63,305 nucleotides of DNA. Origin: a virus. The translations under genes and the position numbers were made by a program. The notes under the pieces are model-generated. The model saw nothing but the letters and a program-made list of their open reading frames with translations. It did no database searches and had not been told where the DNA came from. Shown here piece by piece: positions 1,442 to 30,239 of this stretch. The stretch spans positions 1 to 63,305 of the IMG/VR virus record IMGVR_UViG_3300032087_001789; one strand, given 5' to 3'. Numbering within the stretch: the first letter of the stretch is position 1; every line of letters begins with the position of its first letter.

Positions 1442-1545
1442 TGGGGTGTGTGTTGAGTCTCTCAGTACCGAAAGTGTTACGTAGAGTATGCGATTAGAGA
1501 ACGAGATGTCAAAGCACGGCAGAGCGAGACTGCCCACCCTACCTA
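1442..1545 (+). ncRNA. tRNA-like structure 0 (large form), upstream of first gene
   Basis: A 7-bp closing stem TGGGGTG (1442-1448) / CACCCTA (1535-1541) is directly abutted by a 5-bp hairpin GGCAG-AGCGAGA-CTGCC (1518-1534) with a 7-nt loop, as a T-arm abuts an acceptor stem. After the stem comes C then CTA (1542-1545), the same N-CTA tail as in the other copies. About 69 nt lie between the 5' stem strand and the T-arm-like hairpin. It is followed by the start-proximal hairpin at 1550-1565. The fold was found by eye and has not been computed. Confidence 0.35.
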
Positions 1546-1549
1546 ACCC

Positions 1550-1580
1550 GAGCCACCCACGGCTCACAAATTCAATTGCT
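1550..1580 (+). promoter_or_regulatory. Start-proximal hairpin element, copy 1
   Basis: Stem GAGCC (1550-1554) / GGCTC (1561-1565) with loop ACCCAC is followed by the 15-nt spacer ACAAATTCAATTGCT and the ATG at 1581. Two further copies, before 2528 and 4002, have different stem bases, an ACCAC loop and the same 15-nt spacing. It probably governs translation initiation in place of a Shine-Dalgarno sequence. Confidence 0.55.
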
Positions 1581-1751
1581 ATGTACACAGCGACATTAGT
1601 TTACACAACCCCTATCTATGGTGGGGTTGAGCGTGTGAAACTCACTAAAAGAGGGGACAAATTCTTGGTAAAGGCGTTTATAAACTACCAAAGAAGTGTC
1701 CTACCAAGCGATGCAACCATTGTCTACGACTGCATCGTAAAGTCTAACTAA
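1581..1751 (+). CDS. Small hypothetical protein (56 aa)
   Basis: No family is recognised. The protein starts MYTATLVYTT and has mixed beta-prone, slightly basic sequence. The ATG at 1581 is chosen over the in-frame ATG at 1488 because the conserved hairpin plus 15-nt spacer found before two other genes ends exactly here, and because a structured element occupies 1442-1565. It is the first gene of the plus-strand early region. The tRNA-like structure at 1757 begins five bases after its stop codon. Confidence 0.6.
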   Translation: MYTATLVYTTPIYGGVERVKLTKRGDKFLVKAFINYQRSVLPSDATIVYDCIVKSN

Positions 1752-1756
1752 GACAA

Positions 1757-1813
1757 GGGTAGTGATAGACTGAGATAAGGTCTATGCCGAGGTCGTGCTC
1801 GGACTACCCCCTA
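1757..1813 (+). ncRNA. tRNA-like structure 1
   Basis: Acceptor-like stem GGGTAGT (1757-1763) / ACTACCC (1803-1809); central hairpin ATAGAC-9 nt-GTCTAT (1765-1785); T-arm-like hairpin CCGAG-GTCGTG-CTCGG (1787-1802) abutting the 3' acceptor strand; then C and CTA. All three helices are fully paired. The copy at 3910 keeps all three with paired base changes, which argues that the RNA fold is selected. It sits five bases after the stop of the first gene and 27 bases before the next start. Confidence 0.6.
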
Positions 1814-1839
1814 ATATAAATCCACTAAAATCAAGTGTT

Positions 1840-2079
1840 ATGGCTAAGGTCACAAGAAGCACCTCGGGTGCTAAGTTCCTTTCAAATAAGGACAAATTCG
1901 ATGCGGTTCAATTCGCAGATTTCAATGTAAACCACAAACCTGCAGGAGGTCGTGCTGAGCGCCTCGCAATGAAACAGAGACTCGCAGAGGCAAAGGCTCT
2001 GTTGAGCGCTCCAAAAGAGGTAGTATCTGTAGGGTACGTTGAGGTAAAGTCTAACCTAAAATTCGCTTACGCAGTATGA
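1840..2079 (+). CDS. Small basic hypothetical protein (79 aa)
   Basis: The product begins MAKVTRSTSGAKF and is rich in Lys, Arg and Ala, with a likely helical middle (about residues 33-52). No family is recognised. The ATG at 1840 is preferred to the in-frame ATG at 1795 because the latter lies inside the tRNA-like structure at 1757-1809. It overlaps the next gene by four bases, so the two are probably translationally coupled. Confidence 0.65.
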   Translation: MAKVTRSTSGAKFLSNKDKFDAVQFADFNVNHKPAGGRAERLAMKQRLAEAKALLSAPKEVVSVGYVEVKSNLKFAYAV

Positions 2080-2351
2080 GTCTCAAGAGCAACATCTTCA
2101 AGGTATTGGTGGAAACACCAAAGACACAATTGTACGGCATAATGGGTACGGGTACGAGCCACGAGTTCTACCCTATCCGCTATGTAAGTAGCCTCATCCA
2201 ATTGCATATGGATGAGAACGAGGTAGAGAAAGTAGGCGATGACCCGAAATTGGTGCAACTGATAGAACTCTATAGCGATATCTGTGCTCAGTTCACGCAG
2301 GGCGATTCTGCCGTTCAAGGAAGTATTCTAAGTCTAACCAAAAATCTGTAA
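2076..2351 (+). CDS. Hypothetical protein (91 aa)
   Basis: No family is recognised. The sequence is slightly acidic with a helical C-terminal half (about residues 50-90). Its ATG overlaps the TGA of the preceding gene. It is followed by a 176-base gap filled with hairpins before the AAA+ ATPase gene. Early phage proteins of this size often act on host functions, but nothing here shows which. Confidence 0.65.
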   Translation: MSLKSNIFKVLVETPKTQLYGIMGTGTSHEFYPIRYVSSLIQLHMDENEVEKVGDDPKLVQLIELYSDICAQFTQGDSAVQGSILSLTKNL

Positions 2352-2384
2352 TCGTATGTTAACACTATGTGTAGCAACTTTAGT

Positions 2385-2430
2385 AGTAGAGTCTTCGGTT
2401 CTACTATACTTGGGGCGTAAGTAACCCCAA
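2385..2430 (+). other. Two consecutive hairpins in the AAA+ gene leader
   Basis: AGTAGA (2385-2390) / TCTACT (2400-2405) encloses a TTCG-containing loop. TTGGGG (2410-2415) / CCCCAA (2425-2430) encloses nine bases. Together with the next two elements they fill the whole leader with structure. No T-run follows, so simple termination is unlikely. Confidence 0.4.
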
Positions 2431-2431
2431 C

Positions 2432-2483
2432 GGGTATAACGGCTTTAGGTCGGGGCAGTTTCAAGGGACTGCGATACCCCCTA
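2432..2483 (+). ncRNA. tRNA-like structure 2
   Basis: Acceptor-like stem GGGTAT (2432-2437) / ATACCC (2474-2479), with the seventh pair A.G; short arm CGGC-TTTAG-GTCG (2440-2452); T-arm-like hairpin GCAGT-TTCAAGGG-ACTGC (2455-2472) whose loop begins TTCAA as in true T loops; then C and CTA (2480-2483). It precedes the start-proximal hairpin of the AAA+ ATPase gene. It is weaker than copies 1 and 3 because of the mismatch and the 4-bp arm. Confidence 0.45.
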
Positions 2484-2497
2484 ATTTATTTTTAACC

Positions 2498-2527
2498 GAC
2501 CCACCACGGGTCACAAATTCAATGCGT
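2498..2527 (+). promoter_or_regulatory. Start-proximal hairpin element, copy 2
   Basis: Stem GACCC (2498-2502) / GGGTC (2508-2512) with loop ACCAC, then the 15-nt spacer ACAAATTCAATGCGT and the ATG at 2528. The spacer shares its first eleven bases with copy 1. The stem bases differ from the other copies but stay paired. Confidence 0.6.
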
Positions 2528-3898
2528 ATGCGTTTTGTAGCAGATGTATGGGCTGTAGCCCAAATGAGTCTCGAGTTCAATAGAACTGAGGTATTGTGTA
2601 TGGCTGAAAAGAGCCAAGACTTATTCCGTAAAGCAGGTATCAATACCGCATCAACGGGTAAGATGAGCACCAAACAAGCGGTGCGTAAAATCGGTGCAGG
2701 TAGCAATCGTGAGTATAGCGAAAAGTATGGTACTGAGTTCATCAAGTTCATCGTGGGTTTCCGCAAGGCTGACAACACAATGTCGGTCTTCTACGAGGAT
2801 GACAATGGCGAGAGCCAAGTAGCGACATTCGCCACCCACGAGTTCTCTCAAGATGAGGGGCAGAGATTTACCCTCGGAACTTGGAACTACGCCATTCGCC
2901 AAGTGAAAGCAATCCGTGATGAGATGCTGAGATTCGCCACCTACGTTAGAGGCGAGGAAGAGAAAACACAACCGCAGACTGAGTCTGCACAAACCACACA
3001 AACTATGCAAGGACAAGACCCTATGCAGATGCTGACCCAAGCGTTGGCGATGATGTCTCAAAGTGGGGCATCAGTAGATGAGGCTCAAGTAGAGGCTATC
3101 GTTGAGCGTAAACTCAAGGATATCAAGCCCACCAAGGTTGAGGTCGTGACTGCGACTGCGACCAAGCGTGTTGAGACTGCACACAAGTCATTCGCTGATG
3201 CGGTGGCGCTTGTGGGTATGAAGAAGAACATCGCCTTGATTGGCGAGGCAGGAAGCGGTAAGTCTCACGGGGCTATTCAAATGGCTCGTGCCTTAGACTT
3301 AGACTATGTCGTTGAGTCTTGTCACGGCAAGATGCAGTCGTTCGATTTGGTTGGTGCTATCAGCCCGACAACGGGCGAGTACATCAGCACGAAATTGCGT
3401 GATGCATACGAGAATGGTAAGGTGCTCATCCTCGATGAGTTTGACCGCTCAAATACTGAGACTACCATTGCCTTGAATGGTATCCTTGCAGGGGACTGCT
3501 ACGGATTCCCCGATGGAATGGTTGAGCGCCACGCTGACTTCCGTGTGATTGCTTGTCAAAACACATTCGGTACGGGGGCATCTAAGACTTACGCCTCGGC
3601 TAAGCCTCAAGATGGTTCTACGCTCACTCGTTTCACTCGCATTGAGTGGAATATCGACACCAAGTTAGAGAAAGCGATTTGTGGCGATACTGAGGCTACT
3701 CGTGTAGTTCAGTCTATCCGCAAGAATGCTAAGGATAATGGCTACGACCAAATCCTTATCACGCCTCGCCAAGCGATTGACTGCAACCAAATGGTTGATA
3801 GCCTCGGTTGGACATTGAAGAAGGCTGTTGAGTTCTCTTGTTTGAACGGGCTTCCTGCAGATGTCAAGAAGCGTTTGTTGAATGGCGTATCACTATAA
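2528..3898 (+). CDS. MoxR/CobS-like AAA+ ATPase
   Basis: A 456-aa protein with an N-terminal region of unknown role, a Gln/Thr-rich linker (about 148-168) and a C-terminal AAA+ domain. Walker A is GEAGSGKS (about 239-246), Walker B VLILDE (about 299-304), a sensor-1-like ACQNT follows, and TLTRFTR may supply arginine fingers. MoxR/CobS-type ATPases remodel partner proteins, often ones with VWA domains. The next gene may encode the partner. The ATG at 2528 is chosen over 2522 because it keeps the 15-nt spacing from the leader hairpin; a later Met (MAEKSQ, 2600) is also possible. Similar cobS-like genes occur in many lytic phages, where their role is unproven. Confidence 0.85.
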   Translation: MRFVADVWAVAQMSLEFNRTEVLCMAEKSQDLFRKAGINTASTGKMSTKQAVRKIGAGSNREYSEKYGTEFIKFIVGFRKADNTMSVFYEDDNGESQVATFATHEFSQDEGQRFTLGTWNYAIRQVKAIRDEMLRFATYVRGEEEKTQPQTESAQTTQTMQGQDPMQMLTQALAMMSQSGASVDEAQVEAIVERKLKDIKPTKVEVVTATATKRVETAHKSFADAVALVGMKKNIALIGEAGSGKSHGAIQMARALDLDYVVESCHGKMQSFDLVGAISPTTGEYISTKLRDAYENGKVLILDEFDRSNTETTIALNGILAGDCYGFPDGMVERHADFRVIACQNTFGTGASKTYASAKPQDGSTLTRFTRIEWNIDTKLEKAICGDTEATRVVQSIRKNAKDNGYDQILITPRQAIDCNQMVDSLGWTLKKAVEFSCLNGLPADVKKRLLNGVSL

Positions 3899-3900
3899 CG
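3891..3900 (+). repeat. CACTATAACG motif, copy 1
   Basis: This 10-mer spans the end of the AAA+ gene. It recurs at 6371-6380 and 12880-12889 and, inverted, at 19801-19810. Here and at 6371 it extends to CACTATAACGATTCGC. Its TATAAC core resembles a sigma70-type -10 box. It lies 10 bp upstream of tRNA-like structure 3. Confidence 0.4.
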
Positions 3901-3909
3901 ATTCGCTAA

Positions 3910-3967
3910 GGGTAGCGGACTGACTGCAACAAGGTCAGCGCTGAGGTCGTGCTCGGGCTACCCACTA
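3910..3967 (+). ncRNA. tRNA-like structure 3
   Basis: Acceptor-like stem GGGTAGC (3910-3916) / GCTACCC (3957-3963); central hairpin CTGAC-9 nt-GTCAG (3920-3938); T-arm-like hairpin CTGAG-GTCGTG-CTCGG (3941-3956) abutting the acceptor; then A and CTA (3964-3967). Compared with the copy at 1757, the last acceptor pair changes T-A to C-G, the central helix is rewritten but stays paired, and one T-arm pair changes C-G to T-G, while the loop GTCGTG and the tail N-CTA are unchanged. That pattern is covariation. Confidence 0.6.
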
Positions 3968-3973
3968 TTAACC

Positions 3974-4001
3974 GCCCACCACGGGCACAATACAATGCTA
4001 T
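3974..4001 (+). promoter_or_regulatory. Start-proximal hairpin element, copy 3
   Basis: Stem GCCC (3974-3977) / GGGC (3983-3986) with loop ACCAC, then the 15-nt spacer ACAATACAATGCTAT and the ATG at 4002. It has the same order and spacing as the elements before 1581 and 2528. Confidence 0.6.
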
Positions 4002-4931
4002 ATGCGTTACGAAATCAAAGAAGACTACAAGACAGATTACCGCCACTCACGGAAAGGTAAACTGACCCTCACGCAGACTACATTCAGCGAGTTTGTTGAG
4101 ATGTCGAACCGAGAGGATGTCGAGCATTCCGATTGGGGTTCGGACTGCCGTGAAACGGGTTCGTTCTACGGCAACATCGGGTCGTACGAAGAGATGTATG
4201 ATGCGTGTTACAACGGAATGGGCGTGAAGAAAATGCTCAAGGCTCGTGCAGACTTGGGTGCGCTACTCAACCACGAGGTTGAAGAGCCACGCAAGGCGGT
4301 TGTGGGCGAGGCGCTCAATGTCGGGGCGTATTGCAACGGCAACCCGTTCCACTACTACAAGGATGCGGATGAGTTCGCTAAGCCTCGTGTACACATCGTG
4401 TACAGCACCAATGCGGTTGCAGGTGTGAGCGCTACGCAGTTCACACGACACGGGGGTGCGATTTGCGCCCTTGTTGACCAACTCGCTCAGCAGGTTGATG
4501 TGAAGATTAGTCTGTACATCAGCAACGAGAGTGTGTTCGGGGGTAACGGATGTCAAGTCGTGACTATCAAAGACTACGAAGATGTGGTCGATGTGCCTCG
4601 TGTATCCGCTACGGCTCATCCGAGTTTCTTCCGCAGAATTGGGTTCACTTGGTTTGAGAATGCAAGTAAGTTAATTCACTCGAGTATACGCTCGGGGTAT
4701 GGCGGTAGCCGTACGGGATATCAGCGTAGCAAGTACATCATCAGCGATGATGACTTCCGTGATTGGGTCGGGATGAACAACGATGAAATGGTTGTCGACT
4801 TCCCTGCACCCGATGAGGAGCAGTTCCGTGACAACGGCAGAACGGCACATTGGTTGAAGACTGCTATCAGCACCATTGAGAATGGTGTGCAGTCTAATGA
4901 AAACATTGTAAAACTATTCGGCTTATGCTAA
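4002..4931 (+). CDS. DUF7192-like phage protein, putative AAA+ partner
   Basis: A 309-aa protein. The stretch from about residue 96 (RKAVVGEALNVGAYCNGNPF) through VHIVYSTNAVAGVSATQFTR to GAICALVDQLAQQVDVKISL resembles the phage DUF7192 family as I remember it: a conserved G-x-x-x-[ND]-V-x-A-Y-x-x-G-x-P block followed by an alternating beta/alpha segment like part of a Rossmann or VWA fold. Its place directly after a MoxR/CobS-like ATPase suggests the ATPase acts on it, as CobS acts with CobT. That pairing is inference. It has its own tRNA-like element and start hairpin, so it may be translated independently. Overlaps the next gene by seven bases. Confidence 0.6.
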   Translation: MRYEIKEDYKTDYRHSRKGKLTLTQTTFSEFVEMSNREDVEHSDWGSDCRETGSFYGNIGSYEEMYDACYNGMGVKKMLKARADLGALLNHEVEEPRKAVVGEALNVGAYCNGNPFHYYKDADEFAKPRVHIVYSTNAVAGVSATQFTRHGGAICALVDQLAQQVDVKISLYISNESVFGGNGCQVVTIKDYEDVVDVPRVSATAHPSFFRRIGFTWFENASKLIHSSIRSGYGGSRTGYQRSKYIISDDDFRDWVGMNNDEMVVDFPAPDEEQFRDNGRTAHWLKTAISTIENGVQSNENIVKLFGLC

Positions 4932-6070: not shown

Positions 6071-6290
6071 GACAATCCGAGTGGCTATGCGAGTCACACA
6101 AATCCACGAATGTTGGTGTGAGGTCGAGGTTACCGACCAACAATTCGAAGACTACTGCAACAATGTTGCAGACCCCGTAGACTTCCTTACCGATGAGGAT
6201 GTCGAAAAGGTATACCAAGAGTCGGGTCAGTTTGACCTTGACTTCCAAGAAGAGACTACGGAAATCCTATGGGATGACCATATGGTCTAA
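6063..6290 (+). CDS. Acidic hypothetical protein (75 aa)
   Basis: The product begins MSKTIRVAMRVTQIHECWCEVEVTD, a likely beta hairpin, followed by an acidic helical part. No family is recognised. It overlaps the preceding gene by eight bases. The last A of its TAA stop is also the first base of the tRNA-like structure at 6290-6357, so cleavage 5' of that structure would leave an mRNA ending just before or within its stop codon. Confidence 0.65.
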   Translation: MSKTIRVAMRVTQIHECWCEVEVTDQQFEDYCNNVADPVDFLTDEDVEKVYQESGQFDLDFQEETTEILWDDHMV

Positions 6291-6357
6291 GCGTGTATGG
6301 TACTCTTGTCCGAGCATTGCTCCAAGAGGTCGGGCGGTTCGATTCCGCCCCACGCTA
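6290..6357 (+). ncRNA. tRNA-like structure 4 (no D-arm)
   Basis: Acceptor AGCGTGT (6290-6296) / CCACGCT (6350-6356) pairs at six of seven positions. The T arm GGCGG-TTCGATT-CCGCC (6333-6349) has a canonical 7-nt TTCGATT loop and abuts the acceptor; discriminator A is at 6357. Between them is no D arm but one long hairpin, CTCTTG/CAAGAG with an inner GAGC/GCTC. I could not fit a standard 5-bp, 7-nt anticodon arm. It is followed by CTC rather than CCA. It could also be a decayed tRNA, but the intact helices argue against that. Confidence 0.55.
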
Positions 6358-6362
6358 CTCAG

Positions 6363-6433
6363 CAATCGTTCACTATAACGATTCGCCCTCAGCGACCCTG
6401 CCTCAAGTGGTTATAATAATGCAGGATAGAGGG
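6363..6433 (+). promoter_or_regulatory. Structured leader of small membrane protein gene
   Basis: Hairpin AATCGTT-CACTAT-AACGATT (about 6364-6383) contains the second copy of CACTATAACG (6371-6380). It is followed by a long nested stem CCCTC/GAGGG (6386-6390, 6429-6433) enclosing CCTGC/GCAGG (6397-6401, 6421-6425). The stretch 6358-6468 has no gene. The next ATG is at 6469. Confidence 0.4.
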
Positions 6434-11691: not shown

Positions 11692-11733
11692 CGAGAAGGA
11701 TAGGCGTACGGGGTTCGATTCCCTGCTTCTTGA
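11692..11733 (+). ncRNA. tRNA-like structure 5 (acceptor plus T-arm minihelix)
   Basis: Acceptor CGAGAAG (11692-11698) / CTTCTTG (11726-11732) is fully paired with one G-U. T arm CGGGG-TTCGATT-CCCTG (11709-11725) has the canonical TTCGATT loop and abuts the acceptor. The whole D and anticodon region is only 10 nt. Discriminator A is at 11733, then CAA. Such minihelices are known minimal RNase P substrates. It might instead be the relic of a tRNA with an internal deletion. Confidence 0.55.
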
Positions 11734-11751
11734 CAAATTAAATTAAATACT

Positions 11752-20443: not shown

Positions 20444-23400
20444 TCAGTCTCTGTTTAAAATTAATACCATTTTTACTAATGCTCCTTCGCCTTCTTTGAG
20501 GGCGTAGTATTTTAAGAGGTCTTGCTCGAATGCTTTAGCCTCTTCTGTTGTCATTGACTTCATTACCTTCTTAGCGATGACTGCGGCATCACGTGGGTCT
20601 TGAGCCATCTTGTTGATATCACGGATAGTATTGATATACTTGTTGCTCGGTAGTTTGTCAGCCTCTACAGACTTGACCACCTTGTTTCCGATGATGGACT
20701 CGACACGACCCTCGATACCCGTTGGGTTGTCTCCGACCATACCTTCTACCGTTTCTTGAAGCAACTTAGTACCCTTTTCTCCTTCGTTGATAATCATACG
20801 ACCAATAGCCTCATTCTCGTTAGTGATACCACGCTCACCGATTTGACGCTCTCTTCTCTTGATTACTTGAATAGACTCCTTAGAGAATAGACCCGTGAAC
20901 GCACCCGTAGTCAACAGACTCAACTTAGCAGTCTCTAAGTTCATCATCTTCTTAGCATCCTCTGTAGATAGATACTTGGTAGTACCAAATGATGTTACGT
21001 AGTGAGGGTTGTCTTCACTCAATGTGCTTAGATTCTTAATAGATAGTGCGTATTCCGATATCATATCCCCGTATACACCTGCTGATTTCAACCACGTCAA
21101 CCAAGACGCATCCCCACGACCCACACTACTGAAGATTGGTAGACCATTAGCACGTTCCCACGCTTTGTAGTTCTCCCAAAAATCTCTATCCTCAAAGTCG
21201 TGTTCTCCATCCGAGAACGCTGTGTAGCCCACCAAGTTCAACATCTTAGTGTACATAGACTCCATAACCCCGATAGGTAGAACCAATGGGTTCATATCGG
21301 TAGCCATACCTTTCAAGAACATCTTCAAAGAGAACTCTCTGTCGAACCAAGAGTCTTCCTCTTCTCCTTCTCCGCCAATCAAAGAACCTGCAAGACCATT
21401 GATTATCGGAACGATAACGAACTGAGACATTGCGTGGAACGCAGCAACCTCGAGCGCAGTACCGCCAATAGACTTGGCTGCATTTGCTCTTGTCTCTCCT
21501 TTTCCTAAGTTACGGAAGTCTAACGCAAGGTTAATCTTCTTGTTGAGTAGGAAGTTAGCAAACGGCATAACCAACATTTGAATAACCGCAGCCACCTGTG
21601 AAGAGTTTAGTCTGTTGAAGTCTGACTTGTCGCGCTTCGTAGAAACGTTTTGGTCTTTCGCTACCATCGTAGATGCGTATGCACTTGCGCCCTCGTCGAT
21701 GTTTGCACCCCATTCAGCCCAAACCTCATCGCTGACCTGCCCATTGAAGCCATTCTCTTTACGCATATAACTCTCGTAGTACATCAACCAAGATGCAGTA
21801 GCCGCAACCTTATCGGTGTTACGTAGCGCAGCCGTAGACGCATCAAAGAATCCTTTACGCATACGCTTCCAACTATTCTTCTCAGCAAGAGCGTTACCCT
21901 CTACGGTAGCGTTAACAGTCTCTTTAATGTAGTCACGCTGACCGATGTCCGCTTGAGCCAAGATAGTGCGCTGTCCTTCGTTGTATTTACCCGTAGTGGC
22001 TGTCATAACGTACCCCAACAAGTGTAGTGGGTTACCACCTTCTATTATGGTGTTCATAATAGCCGAAGACTGCTTCAAGATTTGATTGAACACACCACCG
22101 AAGTAGTACAATACCGTTAGGTTGTTCATCTCGTTTGCAAACTTAGCCAAGTTAGTACCGAGCATTTGGTCTGTTGACCTTGCAACTGCGATATCATCAG
22201 TCAAGAACTGAACTATCTTGCGACGCATATCTCGTCTGTCTTGTGGGTCACGTACAACTTTTTTGAACTGCTCATTAGACTCAGAAGTCATAGCAGACAC
22301 TTTAGCAACGCTATATGCCGTGCGAGTCTTAACCTCATTTTGCCTGTACGTTCTGCTCAATGAAGAGTAGAAGTTCATATCAATGTATCTCGTCTTGCTA
22401 CCCATAGCGTTCTCATTACGCTCGTAGGTAGATGACGCTTGTCTGTTTGCTTTACTTAGATTGTAAGAGTTAAAGGCTGACTGAATGTTAGCCATATCGT
22501 CTTGAATCTTAGTGATGTCATCGTTCGTAGAGCCTACTGCACGGAATCCAATCGGCAGGTAGTTCTCTTCCTCTTTGAAGTTCATACCGAGGAACTCCTC
22601 AGCATAACGCTTGACCGCCTTGCCTTGTCTCTTAAAACGAGAGCGCAATTGGTCAATCATCTTCATCATATTCTTATCGGACTCGAGTTCCTTAACGATA
22701 GCGTTATAGTTCTTTTTCTTACCATTCTCGGTGTAGAACACAGAATCCAAAGTCTCTCTAATCTCTTTTCTTTGATTTTTACCCTTACCTCTTAGTCTAC
22801 CACCGCTACTCCAACGTGGGTCGTTAGACAGACTCAACTCAAAGTTAGCAATCACCTGAGCCAAATACTGAGTCTGATTCACGCCTTCAGGCTTCTGAGT
22901 CAGGACAGAGTAAATCTGCATACGTACCTGAGATGCTATCGAAGTCTGTCCGAACTGCTTAGCCAACTTGATGAGGTCTTGGTTGAAGTCCTCTGCAATT
23001 TTATCAGCCAAAGATGCTTCGTTACGTAGCGATGAGAATCCTGAGATTTCCATAAACTTAGCGATACGAGCCTCGGATGACTTGAAGATACGACGCATAA
23101 ACGTAGGCGTGTTCTCGAAACGAGATGACACCCAATGCAACGGAGTCTTCTTAGCAGTCTCTCTTGACTGCAGACCAAGTGCTTTCAGCGCTTTGTTTCC
23201 GTCGTTCTTAGCAACTGCAGATGCAGCCAATGCGTTGATACCCAATGCCTTACCGTTTACAGCGAAGTCATACATAGCGAACTCTAAACGCTTCAACTCT
23301 AACGGAGTCAGCGCATCCATTCTGCTCTTGACTATTGATGCTGCAACGTCGTCTTCCATCTCTTCGGTGATACCAAAAATGGCGGCGAAGTTAGGGTTAG

Positions 23401-26400
23401 ACTCGTATAGTCTGCGGAAGTTCAGGAACGTTGGGATGATAGCCTCATCTATGATGACTTGTCTGTTCTTGTTCAACTGCTCCTCCTTGGCTTCAGCGTA
23501 CAACTCCAATGCCGCCTCGAAGTCGTTAATATCGTTGAGGTCAAGCCCCATTTCATCAGCGATGGCGGTTAGTTTTTTCTGTACACCCTTGAGTTCTTTC
23601 TCGTTGATTTGACGCATCAAACCTTCGTACTCAGTAACCCAATCTGTTCCATTCTCAAAGGCTAAGTCTGCAGCCTTTTCAACTAACTGTTTCTCCTGTA
23701 GGGATACCTCTTCTACCTTTAGTCTCTCGAAGATTTCGTTGAAGTATACCTTCGCGCGACGCATATCTACTTTTCCTAAACCTTCAATCTCAACATAAGG
23801 ATTAGATAATTCACCCTTTCTTACTGAGACAGATTTAGTAGAGATATTCAAGTCTTTGATTGTATCCTCTAATAACTGTAAACTCTCTGCACTTAGTAGA
23901 GCAGGGTTAATACTTGTAATATCAAGAATCTGTTCTGCATAACTAATGAGAGGACTACGTGATGTAGGTTTTAGTTTTTTAAATCTGTTTCTTAAATCTT
24001 TTTGTGCTTTCTCTACACGCTTCAATTGGTTGATGTAATCGTTAAGACCTTTAGCATCCATCTGCTTCTCTACAATCTTAACAACTTTGTCAACAACAGA
24101 GTTCAGTACCTCGTATCTAATATCGGGGTCAACAGCATTACGACCTTTCATCTTAGCAACCTTGGCTGCAGTACGAATCAACTGAGCAACCTGAGTAGGC
24201 TTAATCTCTACCCCTGCTTCTTTGATGACACGAATCATCTCGTTGATAATGTTTCTGTTTACCTTCTTCTCTGTCTTGAGGACAGCCGCTAATTTCTTAC
24301 GTAGGTCTTTAGCCTTGCTTGACTCAGCCTTACGCTCTGCTTTGCGCTTCGCAGCCAACTGAGCAGAACGCTCACGAGTTCCCTCTTTCCAACCTTGCTT
24401 AACGCCTCTTGCATTCTGTGATGCTTTAGCGTAGATAAGGTTAGCATCAGCACGGCTCATACCCTTAGCACGTAATGAGGCGATGATATCAGCCTTCTTT
24501 TCGCCGAGTAGGATGCGCTGTGCAATGCTTGTAATGATTGTAGATTGGAAGAAGACTCCTGCCTTACGCTTAGTCTCGGGGTTAACAGACTCCTGCATAT
24601 CCTTGAAAGATACACCCTCAATCTCAGCGGCACGTTCCAATACCATACCAACAGGTAGGGACAGCATTTCAAAATTACCCTCCTTGTTTTTAAACTCACG
24701 AACCTTAGCATTTCCTTCTTCGGTCAACTGAGTCGCAGCCTCTTGTAAGACATTCATACGACCCTCTAAAGTCTGACCAACGATTAGAGACTCTAATAAT
24801 GTTTTTCCATCGTAAGAAGTACCTGCATCAGAAACAATACGCTTCAATGATTTGTCTCCCGCTTTTTCTGCAGAGACATAACCGCTTTTTGCTGTGAGTC
24901 TGTCTGCTAAATAAGTCTTGCCCTGCCCTCTTAGTCTTCCTGCAACACTACGTATAATGTCTCCTTTTGCTTTGTTGCGTTTTTTCTCGTCTTCGATGGC
25001 GTTAATTTCGTCAACTTGCGCTTGGGTTAACTCCCCTGCCTCAACCAATAGTTCTAATTGTTGCTTACCCGAAAGTTTGACTTCTGTTGTAGTAGATGCT
25101 GACAGGTCGGCAATTTGATATATGTTATCCTTTCTGTTAGCAATACCAAGAGCCTTACCTTTAATATCTGTGCTGTATGTGGAGTGATTTCCGTCTTGGG
25201 TAACTACTCTCCCGTCAGCGTCTCTTTCAAACTCGTAGAACGCATAGATGTCTCCCGTGGTAAACTCGTTTTCAACCAAGTATCCGTCTCGCATATCGTT
25301 TTGATAATCGAAATCAGACTTCATTCCCAAGTTCTCCATAAAGGCTTTCATCTCACCACTTGTGGTTAAGAACATATCCAAGCCGCTCATTCTGTCTCCT
25401 TTAGACTCCTCTAAATAAGAATCAAGTGTGTCGTGCTTTGCGATTTCTTCCATAAAGTTACCTCGACCCTCTTTCTTATCCTCTTTGGACTCTTTGTAAA
25501 TTGCAGCAGGTTTTTTACCGTTTTCTGCTAAACTATTATAGAAGAATTTGATAGCCTGTAATGGGTCTGTAAATCCTTCAGTTGGAACATCTATGTTAAA
25601 CTTCTTACCACGAGCAGGAAACTCAATAGACTTTCCTTTGTTTCTATTGAACGCTTCCATTAACTCCGTGTAGACCACCCTTGATGTACCTTTGTAGAAT
25701 CTGTGACCCGTTTCAGGTTTACCTGATACAATAGCAACGATGTCAGCATCTTTCACAAGACCTTGAACCTCGTTGTTGTTTTTGTTAGTAGCCCATACCA
25801 CTCCCTTGTCTGTGTTAGCAGGGTCTTGAGAGAATGATATACCACCCTCTAACTCAATCTTAGTACCATCTAACGTGGTGTAAGTACCACGAGCAGATTG
25901 GTCACCCATCCAAAATAGAATCTTAGGTGGTCTGCCGTTTTCTTTCTCGAAGTTCTGTACTACTGTAGCAAGGTTTGTGAACTTTGTATCCTCGTTAATG
26001 AACGAACCTGCAAAGGTCTTGCCCTTAGCAACCTTGATAGTAGCCTTTTTAACCTTAGCCATAAGTTTAGACTTAACGGGATGCTGAAGCGCCCCTTGGC
26101 TATTGTCATCTTTTAGTTTGTTTTCCGATAGTTGGAAGAATACATTTGCAGACCTTTGATTTACGTTTGCAGCATCAATGTAAGTCTTAGTTGTATTCTG
26201 TGATGTTACATCTACAATAGCATCTAAGATAGAAGTACCTTCAACAACACCGAAGTCTCCGTATACCGTCTTGATTAGATTAGCAACCATTGCCTTGAAA
26301 GCATCAAACAGAGTAGACCCTGTGAGGGTAAACCCTTTGCTCTCTATGAGGTTTTGAGTCTTGCTATCTAACGGGATACTACCGATAGTCTGTTGGAATC

Positions 26401-29400
26401 TTAGGTTAGAGAATGCCTCTGCGACAAACTCGTGCACGTCGGTAAACCCATACTGCCCCAAAAGCGACTCAGAGCGTTCGTCTTGGCTGTTCTCTATGAA
26501 TGACTTAGCGTCAGCCATAAGAGCATCCAAAGTCTCTCTAAACGCAGGATTACTCTCAAGTTGCAACGAGGTAAATCCGTGAATTGCTTCGTGTAGCAAT
26601 GTTGATGCAAAGTCGTTAAAGTTCTTTACACCTTCAGAGCCTTGGTTTACGACAATAGTATTGTCTAAGTAAGGATTCCAAAAACCATATAGTTTAGTAT
26701 TCTCTTCTTGGAATATGTGGTCTGACAAAGAACCATCATCTACGATTACGTTCATCTTGTTTAGGATGCCCATATTCTTTAAAACTTTCAAGCCATCCAA
26801 TGTGTCTTGGTCAATGTTTTCAGAAGACATACTATCGTCAAGCAATGAGTTCACTACATCAAGTGCAGAGAATCCCGACTGCTGAACTCCAAACAACAAT
26901 GTGTTTCTATACCAATTACCCCAAGCCTTAGACTCCTCGTTAAGTTCGAGTTTCTCGTGCTGTTGGATAATGTTGTCAATGTTCTTTTCTGTTACGCTTC
27001 TTTTCGCTGTGTCAGGGTTTACATTAGGCGTTAGTCCGAATCTTTCGTTTAGCCAATTACCCATAAGGGTGTTAGAGGTGTTAACTTGGAAGAATGTACC
27101 TTCCTTGACCTTACTCTCTCCGAATCGACCCATAGTCTCAGTAAGCATCTGCCCCGATTGGAAGTCACCTGCTACAGACTCGACATATTTGGCGAACTGT
27201 GAGAACGTACCGTTACGCTTTAGGTTGATACCAAGGACAGCGCCAACAGTTTTACGCAGACTCTCCATACCCGCACGGACAACACTTGCCCCTGCTCCCT
27301 CCATAGAGATGTCTCCTACAGCGATATCCGCAGCCATTTCAGCGAATGTTTCCTCGATAGCCAAGGCTTCACCGCCTTGCTTCATAGCCGCTCTGTATAT
27401 TTGGACATACTTAGCACGAGTCGCTCTATCCATACCATTGAATGCTGCGTCTATAAATCGCTTAGCATACTTAGGGTCTACCTTGCGTAGAATCTTGTGG
27501 AATCCTTCGTGGAATGCTGTGTTGTTCTGAGCCATATTCGCCATAATGTGAATAGACCCATCCTCAGCCATATAAAAACCGTTAGAACCTGCAAGAGTCT
27601 GTTTGTCTACTCCTGAGATTGCTTCAGCGTCGTCTAAGTTTTTGTGCAAGAATACCTTGCCTTCGCCTTTAAACACGTTAGCCACATTTTTAATGCCTCG
27701 CATAAGTGGTGTGTCAGGCAGTTCTGTATTTTCATCAACCTCTATACTCGTAGTCATACCGCCTACAAATTCAGAGTTTGCTTGTTTTTGCGCTTTCATT
27801 TCAGCGATTTGAGGCTCATACTTGGCTTCAATCGCTTTGATAGAGTTGTATTGTTCTTTTGCTTCCGCACGTAGACGCGCTCTTTCCTCTTTGCTTAGGC
27901 TTTTTTCTTGGCGTAACCTACGCATATTCTCAGAAAGCCCTTGATTTAATTCTACGGTACGCTGAGCATCCTCGTCTGTGTATTGTTCGTAGACGCCTTC
28001 CATTTCGGTCTGCATCTGAATCTCCAACTTAGACAGAGTTTTGAGTTTAGTCTGTATCGCTTCGCGTCTTCTTGCGTCTGTAGTATTGCGTAGTTCCTCA
28101 GCAAGTTTCTGTTTGTTATTGCGAATCTTAATAAGGTCGCTACGCAAACCACCAAAGCCCATAGCAGAAACACCTGCGGTAAGAAGACCACGTCCTTGGA
28201 TAGCCGCTTTGACAGATGTAGAACCTGCACCCATACCAAACCCTACAATAGCAGAGTCAAGCAATTCATAGATGTTAGGCATCTCTTCGTCGTTTGCAAT
28301 GGAGTGAACCACGCCCGAACCAACGGTTGCAATAATCTCTTCTACAGCCTCTTCAGAACCTTGCTTTACGAATTTAAGACCTGCATCTTTTGCAAAGTCT
28401 CTTAGTTCCTTGGACAGCAAACCTTTCTTAAACAGAGTCTGCTTAATCTCTTGACGGCTCATATTTGCAAAAGCACCTTTACCTGCAAGTGCTTTAATAT
28501 CCGATGCAAACACACGCTCAGAGAACAATTCAACAGCGGCATCTCCAAGAGCCATAGTGAATGCTGTTCCATCGTCCATATGTTTTCCGTACGTGTCAGC
28601 CCAAGTTCTACCAAACGTAGACAGACCCATAAATGCAGAAGAACTCCATAACATAACAGAGTTACCCAACCCACGTGTAAAGTATGCTACTGCCGCTTGT
28701 GCTATCAACTGAGGTGCAGTCTGAGCGGCTTGGTGATAGAACATAGCACGAGCAGCCCTAAGGTTTCCTTCTGCAAGGTTTTCCGAAACGCCTTTTGATA
28801 TTTCGTCGTCCGTTAAGTCCCAACCTTCTTTTAGGTTGGCTTGACTACGGAATGAGTTGTCGTACATATCTACTGCAGCGCCGTGTCTGTCGTACAGAGA
28901 TTGGAAACTGTTTCCCAAGTCCATAACACCCGTACCAAAGTCGTACATAAAGTTACCGAAAGCACCAAGATTATCATCCCACCATTCAGCGTCTTCTACA
29001 TCTTCTGCGTATCTTTTTGCATTGTATCTGCTAATAACTTGCAGTTCCCCGAAAGTTTGTCGTGTAGGCTCTCCGATAAACTCGCCTGTGCGAAGGTCTA
29101 TTATATCATCAGGGGTAGGTTCGTGACCAATATTAAGCATCTCTTTGACGGTTGTTGAGTAATATTCCCCTTTCTTATGTACAGCAGACTCGTCAAATAC
29201 ATTTCCCCCCTCGTCAAGAAACTCATTTAAAAGCCAAACAGAAGGTTCTGTCCCTCCATAATATTCATTGTGTAACTCAATTTTATCGTCGTAAGCCGCT
29301 AAAAGTGCTTTATCTCCGTTTATTTGTCCCCCCTGTAATTGGCGCACAAGCCTAATAACATCTTCTTTGCTTTCCGCTTGACGGATAGCCTTAACCATAA

Positions 29401-30205
29401 TGTCTAACTTACCGTTTGCGTCTTTTACAAATGGAGGCTGATGTTGAGACGGATGAGGATGTGTATACTCAAGGGCATTTAATGGAAGAAACATATTACC
29501 ATTTGCTACAACGGTAGCATCAGTATATGCTGTACCAAATTCATCTGTTTGACTCCATTTAGAGTAGGGTATGTTTTTGTCCCAATCTTCGTTACCTGCG
29601 TGGTACTTAAAATAACGGTCTACCCAAAATTCTTCTGCTATTTGGAGTTGCGATAAACTGTGTTCAAGATGACGACTTCCATATGATATTTCAAGTAATT
29701 GTTTCTCCCTGTAATCCTCGAGAGACATACCTGCTTCCATTGCCCTGTATTCTTCGTCGGTCAATTCAGCATATTTAATGGTAGGGTCGACTTCAACCTC
29801 GTGCTTTAAAATAGCGGTTGCATCTCTTACACCACGGGGGTCTGATTCTGCATATTCACGTGCAGCCTCAGTCCAATAATCAGTCTTTTCGGTAGACTCC
29901 GAAGTAGATTCTTCCAATAGAGAATCCAATGAAGATTCTGCTGAAGTAGAGTCCAAAGAATCTTCCACGAAGGACGAGTCTGAATTTTTTTTTTCAGACC
30001 CTATGCCGACTTTAGAGAAAAAGTCTTGTTGTGATACATCATCTTGGAACGTGTCGTCGGTAGTGCCTATGTAGTCGTAAATCTGTTCTGCATATTCGGT
30101 ATCGCTCATTTTCTGAGCAAAGTCCTCAAACGAAACGTCTTGAGAATATGTTTCGTCTTGTTTGGATATATAACTATATAGTTCTTCTAAGTATTCCTCG
30201 TTCAT
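20444..30205 (-). CDS. Giant polyvalent / internal virion protein (3253 aa)
   Basis: One 9.76-kb frame. ATG 30205 (MNEEYLEELYSYIS) is chosen; a TTG nine codons upstream overlaps the promoter. Acidic Ser-rich N-terminus; zincin-like FHEGFH near residue 900 and LLHEAIHGF near 1205; long Lys/Glu/Ala-rich coiled coils at about 1900-2300; a C-terminal region (about 2700-2850, NQILKQSSAIMNTIIEGGNP) like LPD38-type domains of phage polyvalent proteins; hydrophobic stretches near 2950-3000. Such proteins are packaged and ejected, processing or crossing the host envelope. It follows two internal-protein genes as in podoviruses. No RNA polymerase motif was seen, unlike the giant N4 protein. Confidence 0.75.
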   Translation of the reverse strand: MNEEYLEELYSYISKQDETYSQDVSFEDFAQKMSDTEYAEQIYDYIGTTDDTFQDDVSQQDFFSKVGIGSEKKNSDSSFVEDSLDSTSAESSLDSLLEESTSESTEKTDYWTEAAREYAESDPRGVRDATAILKHEVEVDPTIKYAELTDEEYRAMEAGMSLEDYREKQLLEISYGSRHLEHSLSQLQIAEEFWVDRYFKYHAGNEDWDKNIPYSKWSQTDEFGTAYTDATVVANGNMFLPLNALEYTHPHPSQHQPPFVKDANGKLDIMVKAIRQAESKEDVIRLVRQLQGGQINGDKALLAAYDDKIELHNEYYGGTEPSVWLLNEFLDEGGNVFDESAVHKKGEYYSTTVKEMLNIGHEPTPDDIIDLRTGEFIGEPTRQTFGELQVISRYNAKRYAEDVEDAEWWDDNLGAFGNFMYDFGTGVMDLGNSFQSLYDRHGAAVDMYDNSFRSQANLKEGWDLTDDEISKGVSENLAEGNLRAARAMFYHQAAQTAPQLIAQAAVAYFTRGLGNSVMLWSSSAFMGLSTFGRTWADTYGKHMDDGTAFTMALGDAAVELFSERVFASDIKALAGKGAFANMSRQEIKQTLFKKGLLSKELRDFAKDAGLKFVKQGSEEAVEEIIATVGSGVVHSIANDEEMPNIYELLDSAIVGFGMGAGSTSVKAAIQGRGLLTAGVSAMGFGGLRSDLIKIRNNKQKLAEELRNTTDARRREAIQTKLKTLSKLEIQMQTEMEGVYEQYTDEDAQRTVELNQGLSENMRRLRQEKSLSKEERARLRAEAKEQYNSIKAIEAKYEPQIAEMKAQKQANSEFVGGMTTSIEVDENTELPDTPLMRGIKNVANVFKGEGKVFLHKNLDDAEAISGVDKQTLAGSNGFYMAEDGSIHIMANMAQNNTAFHEGFHKILRKVDPKYAKRFIDAAFNGMDRATRAKYVQIYRAAMKQGGEALAIEETFAEMAADIAVGDISMEGAGASVVRAGMESLRKTVGAVLGINLKRNGTFSQFAKYVESVAGDFQSGQMLTETMGRFGESKVKEGTFFQVNTSNTLMGNWLNERFGLTPNVNPDTAKRSVTEKNIDNIIQQHEKLELNEESKAWGNWYRNTLLFGVQQSGFSALDVVNSLLDDSMSSENIDQDTLDGLKVLKNMGILNKMNVIVDDGSLSDHIFQEENTKLYGFWNPYLDNTIVVNQGSEGVKNFNDFASTLLHEAIHGFTSLQLESNPAFRETLDALMADAKSFIENSQDERSESLLGQYGFTDVHEFVAEAFSNLRFQQTIGSIPLDSKTQNLIESKGFTLTGSTLFDAFKAMVANLIKTVYGDFGVVEGTSILDAIVDVTSQNTTKTYIDAANVNQRSANVFFQLSENKLKDDNSQGALQHPVKSKLMAKVKKATIKVAKGKTFAGSFINEDTKFTNLATVVQNFEKENGRPPKILFWMGDQSARGTYTTLDGTKIELEGGISFSQDPANTDKGVVWATNKNNNEVQGLVKDADIVAIVSGKPETGHRFYKGTSRVVYTELMEAFNRNKGKSIEFPARGKKFNIDVPTEGFTDPLQAIKFFYNSLAENGKKPAAIYKESKEDKKEGRGNFMEEIAKHDTLDSYLEESKGDRMSGLDMFLTTSGEMKAFMENLGMKSDFDYQNDMRDGYLVENEFTTGDIYAFYEFERDADGRVVTQDGNHSTYSTDIKGKALGIANRKDNIYQIADLSASTTTEVKLSGKQQLELLVEAGELTQAQVDEINAIEDEKKRNKAKGDIIRSVAGRLRGQGKTYLADRLTAKSGYVSAEKAGDKSLKRIVSDAGTSYDGKTLLESLIVGQTLEGRMNVLQEAATQLTEEGNAKVREFKNKEGNFEMLSLPVGMVLERAAEIEGVSFKDMQESVNPETKRKAGVFFQSTIITSIAQRILLGEKKADIIASLRAKGMSRADANLIYAKASQNARGVKQGWKEGTRERSAQLAAKRKAERKAESSKAKDLRKKLAAVLKTEKKVNRNIINEMIRVIKEAGVEIKPTQVAQLIRTAAKVAKMKGRNAVDPDIRYEVLNSVVDKVVKIVEKQMDAKGLNDYINQLKRVEKAQKDLRNRFKKLKPTSRSPLISYAEQILDITSINPALLSAESLQLLEDTIKDLNISTKSVSVRKGELSNPYVEIEGLGKVDMRRAKVYFNEIFERLKVEEVSLQEKQLVEKAADLAFENGTDWVTEYEGLMRQINEKELKGVQKKLTAIADEMGLDLNDINDFEAALELYAEAKEEQLNKNRQVIIDEAIIPTFLNFRRLYESNPNFAAIFGITEEMEDDVAASIVKSRMDALTPLELKRLEFAMYDFAVNGKALGINALAASAVAKNDGNKALKALGLQSRETAKKTPLHWVSSRFENTPTFMRRIFKSSEARIAKFMEISGFSSLRNEASLADKIAEDFNQDLIKLAKQFGQTSIASQVRMQIYSVLTQKPEGVNQTQYLAQVIANFELSLSNDPRWSSGGRLRGKGKNQRKEIRETLDSVFYTENGKKKNYNAIVKELESDKNMMKMIDQLRSRFKRQGKAVKRYAEEFLGMNFKEEENYLPIGFRAVGSTNDDITKIQDDMANIQSAFNSYNLSKANRQASSTYERNENAMGSKTRYIDMNFYSSLSRTYRQNEVKTRTAYSVAKVSAMTSESNEQFKKVVRDPQDRRDMRRKIVQFLTDDIAVARSTDQMLGTNLAKFANEMNNLTVLYYFGGVFNQILKQSSAIMNTIIEGGNPLHLLGYVMTATTGKYNEGQRTILAQADIGQRDYIKETVNATVEGNALAEKNSWKRMRKGFFDASTAALRNTDKVAATASWLMYYESYMRKENGFNGQVSDEVWAEWGANIDEGASAYASTMVAKDQNVSTKRDKSDFNRLNSSQVAAVIQMLVMPFANFLLNKKINLALDFRNLGKGETRANAAKSIGGTALEVAAFHAMSQFVIVPIINGLAGSLIGGEGEEEDSWFDREFSLKMFLKGMATDMNPLVLPIGVMESMYTKMLNLVGYTAFSDGEHDFEDRDFWENYKAWERANGLPIFSSVGRGDASWLTWLKSAGVYGDMISEYALSIKNLSTLSEDNPHYVTSFGTTKYLSTEDAKKMMNLETAKLSLLTTGAFTGLFSKESIQVIKRRERQIGERGITNENEAIGRMIINEGEKGTKLLQETVEGMVGDNPTGIEGRVESIIGNKVVKSVEADKLPSNKYINTIRDINKMAQDPRDAAVIAKKVMKSMTTEEAKAFEQDLLKYYALKEGEGALVKMVLILNRD

Positions 30206-30231
30206 GATGTCATCATTTGTTTCTGATAACA

Positions 30232-30239
30232 CAAATATA
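30232..30239 (-). promoter_or_regulatory. Promoter -7 (TATATTTG) of giant protein gene
   Basis: TATATTTG on the minus strand ends 26 bases before the ATG at 30205. Its final TTG is the start of a longer in-frame extension, which is therefore unlikely to be used. Confidence 0.6.

Follow-up and report, generated by a model that had tools for sequence, protein, structure and literature searches.

The early region of the 63-kilobase (kb) IMG/VR virus record IMGVR_UViG_3300032087_001789, attributed to a phage of Bacteroidota, analysed here at its full length of 63,305 nucleotides (nt) and called the window, contains a repeated RNA module in which a transfer RNA (tRNA)-like fold is followed by one unpaired base and CTA, a short leader hairpin and the start codon of an early gene. 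Judged from sequence comparison, these modules are quite probably pre-tRNA mimics, which would allow cleavage of the early transcript by the host ribonucleases RNase P and/or RNase Z and would provide every gene group with a defined 5' end that carries the hairpin. With slightly less confidence, we also consider it probable that this phage lineage evolved minimal tRNA mimics, of several sequence origins and partly from real tRNA genes, as cut marks coupled to a standard 5'-hairpin leader, i.e., tRNA punctuation without tRNAs. We favour pre-tRNA mimicry because of the geometry shared across sequence classes, the flavobacterial rule for tRNA 3' ends, the tRNAs that stand before genes in relatives, and published enzymology.

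The Modules and Their Relatives

The initial annotation had described three modules, before the genes starting at 1581, 2528 and 4002; all of them were found at these places with their parts in the order given, while a fourth tRNA-like element at 1757-1813 had been overlooked. Two further ones, with true TTCGATT T-loops, lie at 6290-6360 and 11692-11736. All features that follow are on the plus strand unless noted. In the first module, tRNA-like element 1 (1442-1545, class I) has the acceptor TGGGGTG/CACCCTA and the T-arm GGCAG-agcgaga-CTGCC, with the fold itself at 1442-1541, then C1542 and CTA at 1543-1545; the leader hairpin GAGCC-ACCCAC-GGCTC (1550-1565) and the 15-nt leader ACAAATTCAATTGCT (1566-1580) lead to the ATG at 1581, and the element has homologues in all five relatives described below. 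The module of the AAA ATPase gene (AAA_5, 2528-3898) begins with element 3 (2432-2483, class IV; fold 2432-2479, C2480, CTA 2481-2483), with the acceptor GGGTATA/GATACCC and the T-arm GCAGT-ttcaaggg-ACTGC, and continues with the hairpin GACCC-ACCAC-GGGTC (2498-2512) and the leader ACAAATTCAATGCGT (2513-2527). Ahead of the DUF7192 protein gene (4002-4931), element 4 (3910-3967, class II; fold 3910-3963, A3964, CTA 3965-3967) has the acceptor GGGTAGC/GCTACCC and the T-arm CTGAG-gtcgtg-CTCGG, followed by the hairpin GCCC-ACCAC-GGGC (3974-3986) and the leader ACAATACAATGCTAT (3987-4001). Element 2 (1757-1813, class II), which precedes gene 1840, has the acceptor GGGTAGT/ACTACCC, a middle hairpin, the T-arm CCGAG-gtcgtg-CTCGG and C-CTA.

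Protein searches with the AAA ATPase found five relative contigs, G001 (L002/L044), G002 (L003/L043), G003 (L004/L042, 65.6 kb), L153 and L154 (61 kb), with identities from 79% down to 61%, and the small protein of gene 1840 as query returned the identical five; an AAA profile scan of bacterial genome contigs found no relative. The sample is thus six contigs, several of them fragmentary, and consists of sequence data. In all five relatives, as read in their early regions, the module heads homologues of the same early genes, and some relatives have additional copies ahead of additional genes, which gives 25 tRNA-like elements and 22 leader hairpins over the six phages. Modules lead gene groups and not each gene, as the window genes after 1840 and 4002 overlap or start closely spaced.

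Geometry and Covariation of the tRNA-Like Part

The tRNA-like element consists of a 7-base-pair (bp) acceptor stem stacked on a 5-bp T-stem, one unpaired base and then CTA. Scanning outward from each leader in the six phages, we found 7 bp, 5 bp, N and CTA in 24 of the 25 leaders, with CAA in the remaining one; some elements, chiefly of class III, fit a drawing of 6+6 bp better, again with 12 bp in total, and in one class III copy (the DUF7192 gene of G002) it is not certain what the 3' acceptor strand pairs with. Class I, at the first gene, has the loop AGCGARA, a long middle arm and a possible extra pair of the preceding G with C73, class II a 7-bp middle hairpin and the 6-nt loop [GA]TC[GA]TG, class III a true TTCGANT T-loop with D and anticodon arms usually absent, and class IV an 8-nt loop. 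Since four different sequence classes have the same geometry, tRNA shape and not sequence is the conserved property.

Covariation is clearest in class II, the commonest, where nine distinct copies were compared: 13 of the 19 pairs, all seven of the acceptor among them, show compensatory change on both sides in at least one copy. Here 98.2% of alignment cells are paired, a figure biased toward structure as the copies were partly selected by geometry, and pairing falls to 31-41% when the partner is slid by 1-3 bases; the compensatory changes between homologous leaders are independent of that selection. The covariation score is 0.58, against 0.24 for shuffles and no more than 0.12 with the partner slid, and none of 500 shuffles reached it. 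For example, the acceptor at the DUF7192 gene is GGGTAGC/GCTACCC in the window versus AGTCTGC/GCAGACT in L154. The minihelix-NCTA pattern by itself is not rare, with 1-3 occurrences per strand in shuffles; all four window leaders have it no more than 20 nt from the leader hairpin.

The Leader Hairpin and Its Distance to the Start Codon

The stems of the 22 leader hairpins are GAGCC, GACCC, GAGTC or GCCC, fully complementary, the loop is (N)ACC(C)AC (7 nt in one copy), and ACAAATT or a similar flank follows. In an alignment of 19 rows all cells are paired, with covariation in two of the five pairs; in the AAA leader, a C-G pair in one of the window and L154 is a G-C pair in the other, a compensatory change. 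The covariance model of the leader (R2) recovered 22 copies at E ~1e-7 or better in 141 kb, all ahead of early genes and with the next best at E=0.39, though it was trained on the copies that it recovers. In context, 20 of the 21 copies with a correct index form the hairpin with a probability of 0.98 or more (the mis-indexed row of the L154 DUF7192 leader was ignored). The proposal that the tRNA-like fold, N-CTA and the hairpin form a selected RNA element is thereby strongly supported, as the covariation on which it was to be judged is present in both parts and homologous leaders keep stem, loop and spacing.

The distance of exactly 15 nt from hairpin to ATG, claimed in the initial annotation, holds for the window, but in the group it ranges over 14-16 nt (15 nt in 15 of 22 copies, 16 in four and 14 in three). 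In the second and third of the three modules, ATGs also lie upstream, 9 and 8 nt after the hairpin, so that 15 nt requires the downstream ATG; the relatives keep an ATG at 14-16 nt, and in some of them the upstream one is missing. Loss of the hairpin in homologues that keep the gene had been named as a refuting observation, and in part it occurs: gene 1840 keeps its tRNA-like element without the standard hairpin in three of six homologues (absent in the window, G001 and G002; present in G003, L153 and L154). The window has in its place a non-standard, weaker hairpin, CACT-AAAATCA-AGTG plus TT, directly ahead of ATG 1840 (1823-1839), which model R2 scores at 15 bits. From the predicted new 5' end at CTA, the hairpin starts after 6-17 nt, mostly 6-9. 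A pairing between the ACCAC loop and the T-loop, also considered, was rejected by eye, since it fails in class III and in one class II copy.

Match to Host tRNA Rules and Real tRNAs in Relatives

The large terminase subunit of the window has relatives in Flavobacterium and Cellulophaga phages, and because the terminase relatives with known hosts are mostly such phages, Flavobacteriia were taken as stand-ins for the host in the tRNA and enzyme comparisons. In 35 distinct flavobacterial tRNA genes C74 is present in all 35 and CCA in only four, with CAA, CTT and CTA as the commonest triplets; this rule was derived from three stand-in genomes, and the actual host of the phage may differ. Within that scope, the 3' rule of the phage elements (N, then C, then not C) is the same as that of flavobacterial tRNA genes. 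RNase P RNA is encoded in six of six flavobacterial-type genomes and RNase Z in three of three.

The two enzymes have been described in terms that fit this geometry. RNase P cleaves model substrates made of acceptor, T-stem and T-loop (PMC11143913). The cut of RNase Z falls after the discriminator; CC or CCA trailers suppress the enzyme, which contacts the acceptor and T-arm and not the D-arm or anticodon loop (PMC7479834). RNase Z clamps the elbow, with CCA as an antideterminant (PMC4919913). The modules have an acceptor/T-stem stack of about 12 bp with a T-loop-like loop, as a substrate of either enzyme should (the loop being non-canonical in classes I, II and IV), a 3' trailer that does not start with CC or CCA, which agrees with the published rule (PMC7479834), and the tRNA 3' architecture of a 7-bp acceptor on a 5-bp T-stem, one discriminator base and C74.

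Real tRNAs occupy the equivalent position in wider relatives (terminase identity 62-67%), where intact tRNA-Arg genes and mini-tRNAs lie directly ahead of protein genes, where the junction is typically a C-N-N triplet, an A/T-rich run (for example AATTAAATTAAA) and, 10-16 nt downstream of the triplet, an ATG; this evidence is positional. The window has the same arrangement in its mini-tRNA at 11692-11736 (acceptor CGAGAAG/CTTCTTG, T-arm CGGGG-ttcgatt-CCCTG, A-CAA), which is followed by attaaattaaatact and the ATG of gene 11752. In many terminase relatives (L277 6585-6659, L185, L193, L194, L206, L216 and others), tRNA-Arg(TCT) genes were observed 13-19 nt upstream of coding ATGs, possibly a case of true tRNA punctuation in phages. 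In one of the five close relatives, ARAGORN calls a tRNA-Tyr (L042 9038-9130) at a place matching window 6290-6357, where the window has a further, reduced tRNA-like element (6290-6360) with the T-loop TTCGATT and A-CTC, and others have a reduced element too; the sequences could represent a series from tRNA to mimic.

Proposed Mechanism and Alternative Explanations

In the mechanism that we propose, the module would act as a punctuation mark within a presumably polycistronic early phage transcript. Its tRNA-like part would imitate a host pre-tRNA through the 12-bp acceptor/T-stem stack, the T-loop-like loop, the single discriminator base and C74 without CCA, and would recruit host nucleases, with RNase P cutting on the 5' side and RNase Z separating N73 from CTA on the 3' side. 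The cut would release a downstream messenger RNA (mRNA) that begins with CUA, followed by the 5' hairpin, the ACAAAUU leader and an AUG 14-16 nt past the hairpin. A 5'-monophosphate end favours mRNA decay, and because cutting would leave such an end, the hairpin is most likely a shield for it and/or a handle for the joint translation of gene groups. That loop and flank are nearly invariant also suggests a binding partner.

Several points weigh against this mechanism. Cleavage and the new 5' ends are predictions from sequence alone. Tested with RF00005 and ARAGORN, the window elements are not called tRNAs, as no full cloverleaf with D, anticodon and T arms was recognised. The T-loops are non-canonical in classes I, II and IV, position +1 is often not G, and, when more of the surrounding sequence is included, other folds are sometimes favoured over the acceptor stem (the 7-bp register used there misfits class III). 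In addition, Bacillus subtilis RNase Z is unlike the archaeal enzymes on aberrant pre-tRNAs (PMC7479834), and C74 alone might slow RNase Z.

That the hairpin positions ribosomes, as suggested in the initial annotation, is not the simplest reading, as the match of the tRNA part to the host rule points to mRNA 5'-end processing. We regard as unlikely an explanation in which the module is an uncut translational control element whose tRNA-like fold and ACCAC hairpin bind a phage or host protein or the ribosome, jointly setting initiation of the early gene groups. The loop (N)ACC(C)AC and the 3' flank ACAAATT, nearly invariant despite variable stem bases, and the maintained 14-16 nt to the ATG would agree with this, and it may be right for the hairpin alone; however, it leaves unexplained why four sequence-unrelated classes share identical 7+5 bp and N-C74 ends, and why real tRNAs stand at the same place in relatives. 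Even less probable, in our estimate, is that the folds shield upstream messages at their 3' end, or pause or terminate transcription, with downstream genes using their own promoters. Several folds do lie shortly past upstream stop codons, but most copies have no U-run directly after the fold, a crude scan just upstream of modules 2-4 found no Bacteroidota-type promoter-like site, and the strict N-CTA and leader register would be unaccounted for. Intrinsic terminators, T-boxes and known riboswitch leaders were rejected for the lack of any Rfam match and of a U-run after most folds.

The tRNA-Tyr in the place of a reduced element and the tRNA-Arg ahead of genes in wider relatives could also indicate decaying, now functionless remnants of phage tRNA genes; this is contradicted by the covariation, as current selection is evident from the 13 of 19 pairs with compensatory change and from the exact recurrence ahead of gene groups, and we give it hardly any credence. 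An equally slim chance is left to a DNA-level element, such as a replication, packaging or recombination site that merely resembles RNA. The stems are repeated and palindromic, and the absence of the first gene between two elements in G001 suggests that the elements may recombine, yet the modules are always on the coding strand just ahead of open reading frames, with a near-fixed ATG distance and tRNA geometry, and the leader covariance model found no strong copy in non-coding orientation or inside genes in the 141 kb. In G001 (L002 ~4130-4250), the first tRNA-like element runs straight into the gene-1840 leader, with the first gene and the second element absent, as if recombination had occurred between two tRNA-like elements.

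Distribution and Further Observations

When IMG/VR was scanned for exact DNA patterns of the hairpin, most matches were unrelated and due to chance, and the only module carriers are the phages found via protein similarity. Models R1 and R2 gave no convincing copy among 28 wider terminase relatives, nor did they in the records of Elemovirus and MW202828 (weak matches at E>0.06 were not accepted); therefore, the exact module is limited to a small phage group.

Upstream of the first module, at ~640-1441, all six phages share a long conserved region in which no convincing gene is apparent; strongly conserved blocks in it, of which TTGACCCATTCCCGTGGGG is an example, reach to the first tRNA-like element. 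The region may encode a structured early RNA, and the module would then define the 3' end of that RNA. Apart from the first tRNA-like element, RNAalifold predicted no convincing overall fold for the 900 nt upstream. A second recurring hairpin was also observed, in which the stem ends in CGTT or GTT, the loop is CACTAT(C) and AAC(G) closes, e.g., AATCGTT-CACTAT-AACGATT, with copies in the window (6364-6383, 3889-3905 and, on the minus strand, 19810), L042 (9137-9160) and L154 (6438-6457); its stem bases vary with pairing retained, and some copies overlap the stop codon of the AAA gene.

Proteins of the window include a crAssvirus-type muzzle protein, ERF and a sigma-region-4 protein. A 3262-amino-acid protein (20444-30232, minus strand) has no Pfam, PHROG or PDB sequence match; it was considered as a virion RNA polymerase and rejected, as neither a motif nor a family was matched. 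Its gene is similar in size to an 11-kb structural gene of Elemovirus.

Known Systems and Biological Meaning

No Rfam 15 family was matched at gathering score, and the nearest weak echo, mascRNA-menRNA (RF01684), stayed far below it (E=2.5, 19.8 against a cut-off of 42.5 bits). This mascRNA/MEN-beta RNA, itself a tRNA-like processing element, shares the acceptor plus T-arm module within a long transcript, but lies at the 3' ends of eukaryotic long non-coding RNAs. The ompA-type stem-loops are 5' stabilising hairpins of bacterial mRNAs and, like the leader hairpin, lie near the mature 5' end; the phage leader differs in its near-invariant loop and flank and in a 5' end putatively made by tRNA enzymes. 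In tRNA punctuation, known from mitochondria and from bacterial tRNA-mRNA co-transcripts, tRNA folds between genes let tRNA-processing enzymes release single mRNAs, and wider relatives of the window phage position real tRNA genes this way, whereas the marks of the window phage are mostly mimics without D and/or anticodon arms, repeated ahead of early-region gene groups and coupled to the standard 5' hairpin leader. Phage M3 RNA and C4 antisense RNA are cut by host RNase P (PMC11143913), as is predicted for the module, but are not described as repeated gene-group leaders; the comparison made here is one of processing. In the open-licence literature on phage tRNA punctuation and tRNA-like leaders we found no such element, an absence that is not proof. 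Thus, tRNA-like folds as transcript cut sites are a known principle, while repeated mimic-plus-hairpin cassettes in a phage early region appear undescribed.

If the proposed mechanism is true, host tRNA-maturation enzymes would serve as the mRNA-processing system of a phage, a use linked mainly to mitochondria, and tRNA mimics reduced to ~45-105 nt would suffice for it. The separate 5' ends of co-transcribed early genes would be accounted for, and the modules would be natural minimal substrates for probing RNase P and RNase Z requirements in Bacteroidota, as well as a modular expression leader for bacteria that rarely use Shine-Dalgarno sites. The relatives with intact tRNA genes directly before genes may mark a route from real tRNA to mimic.

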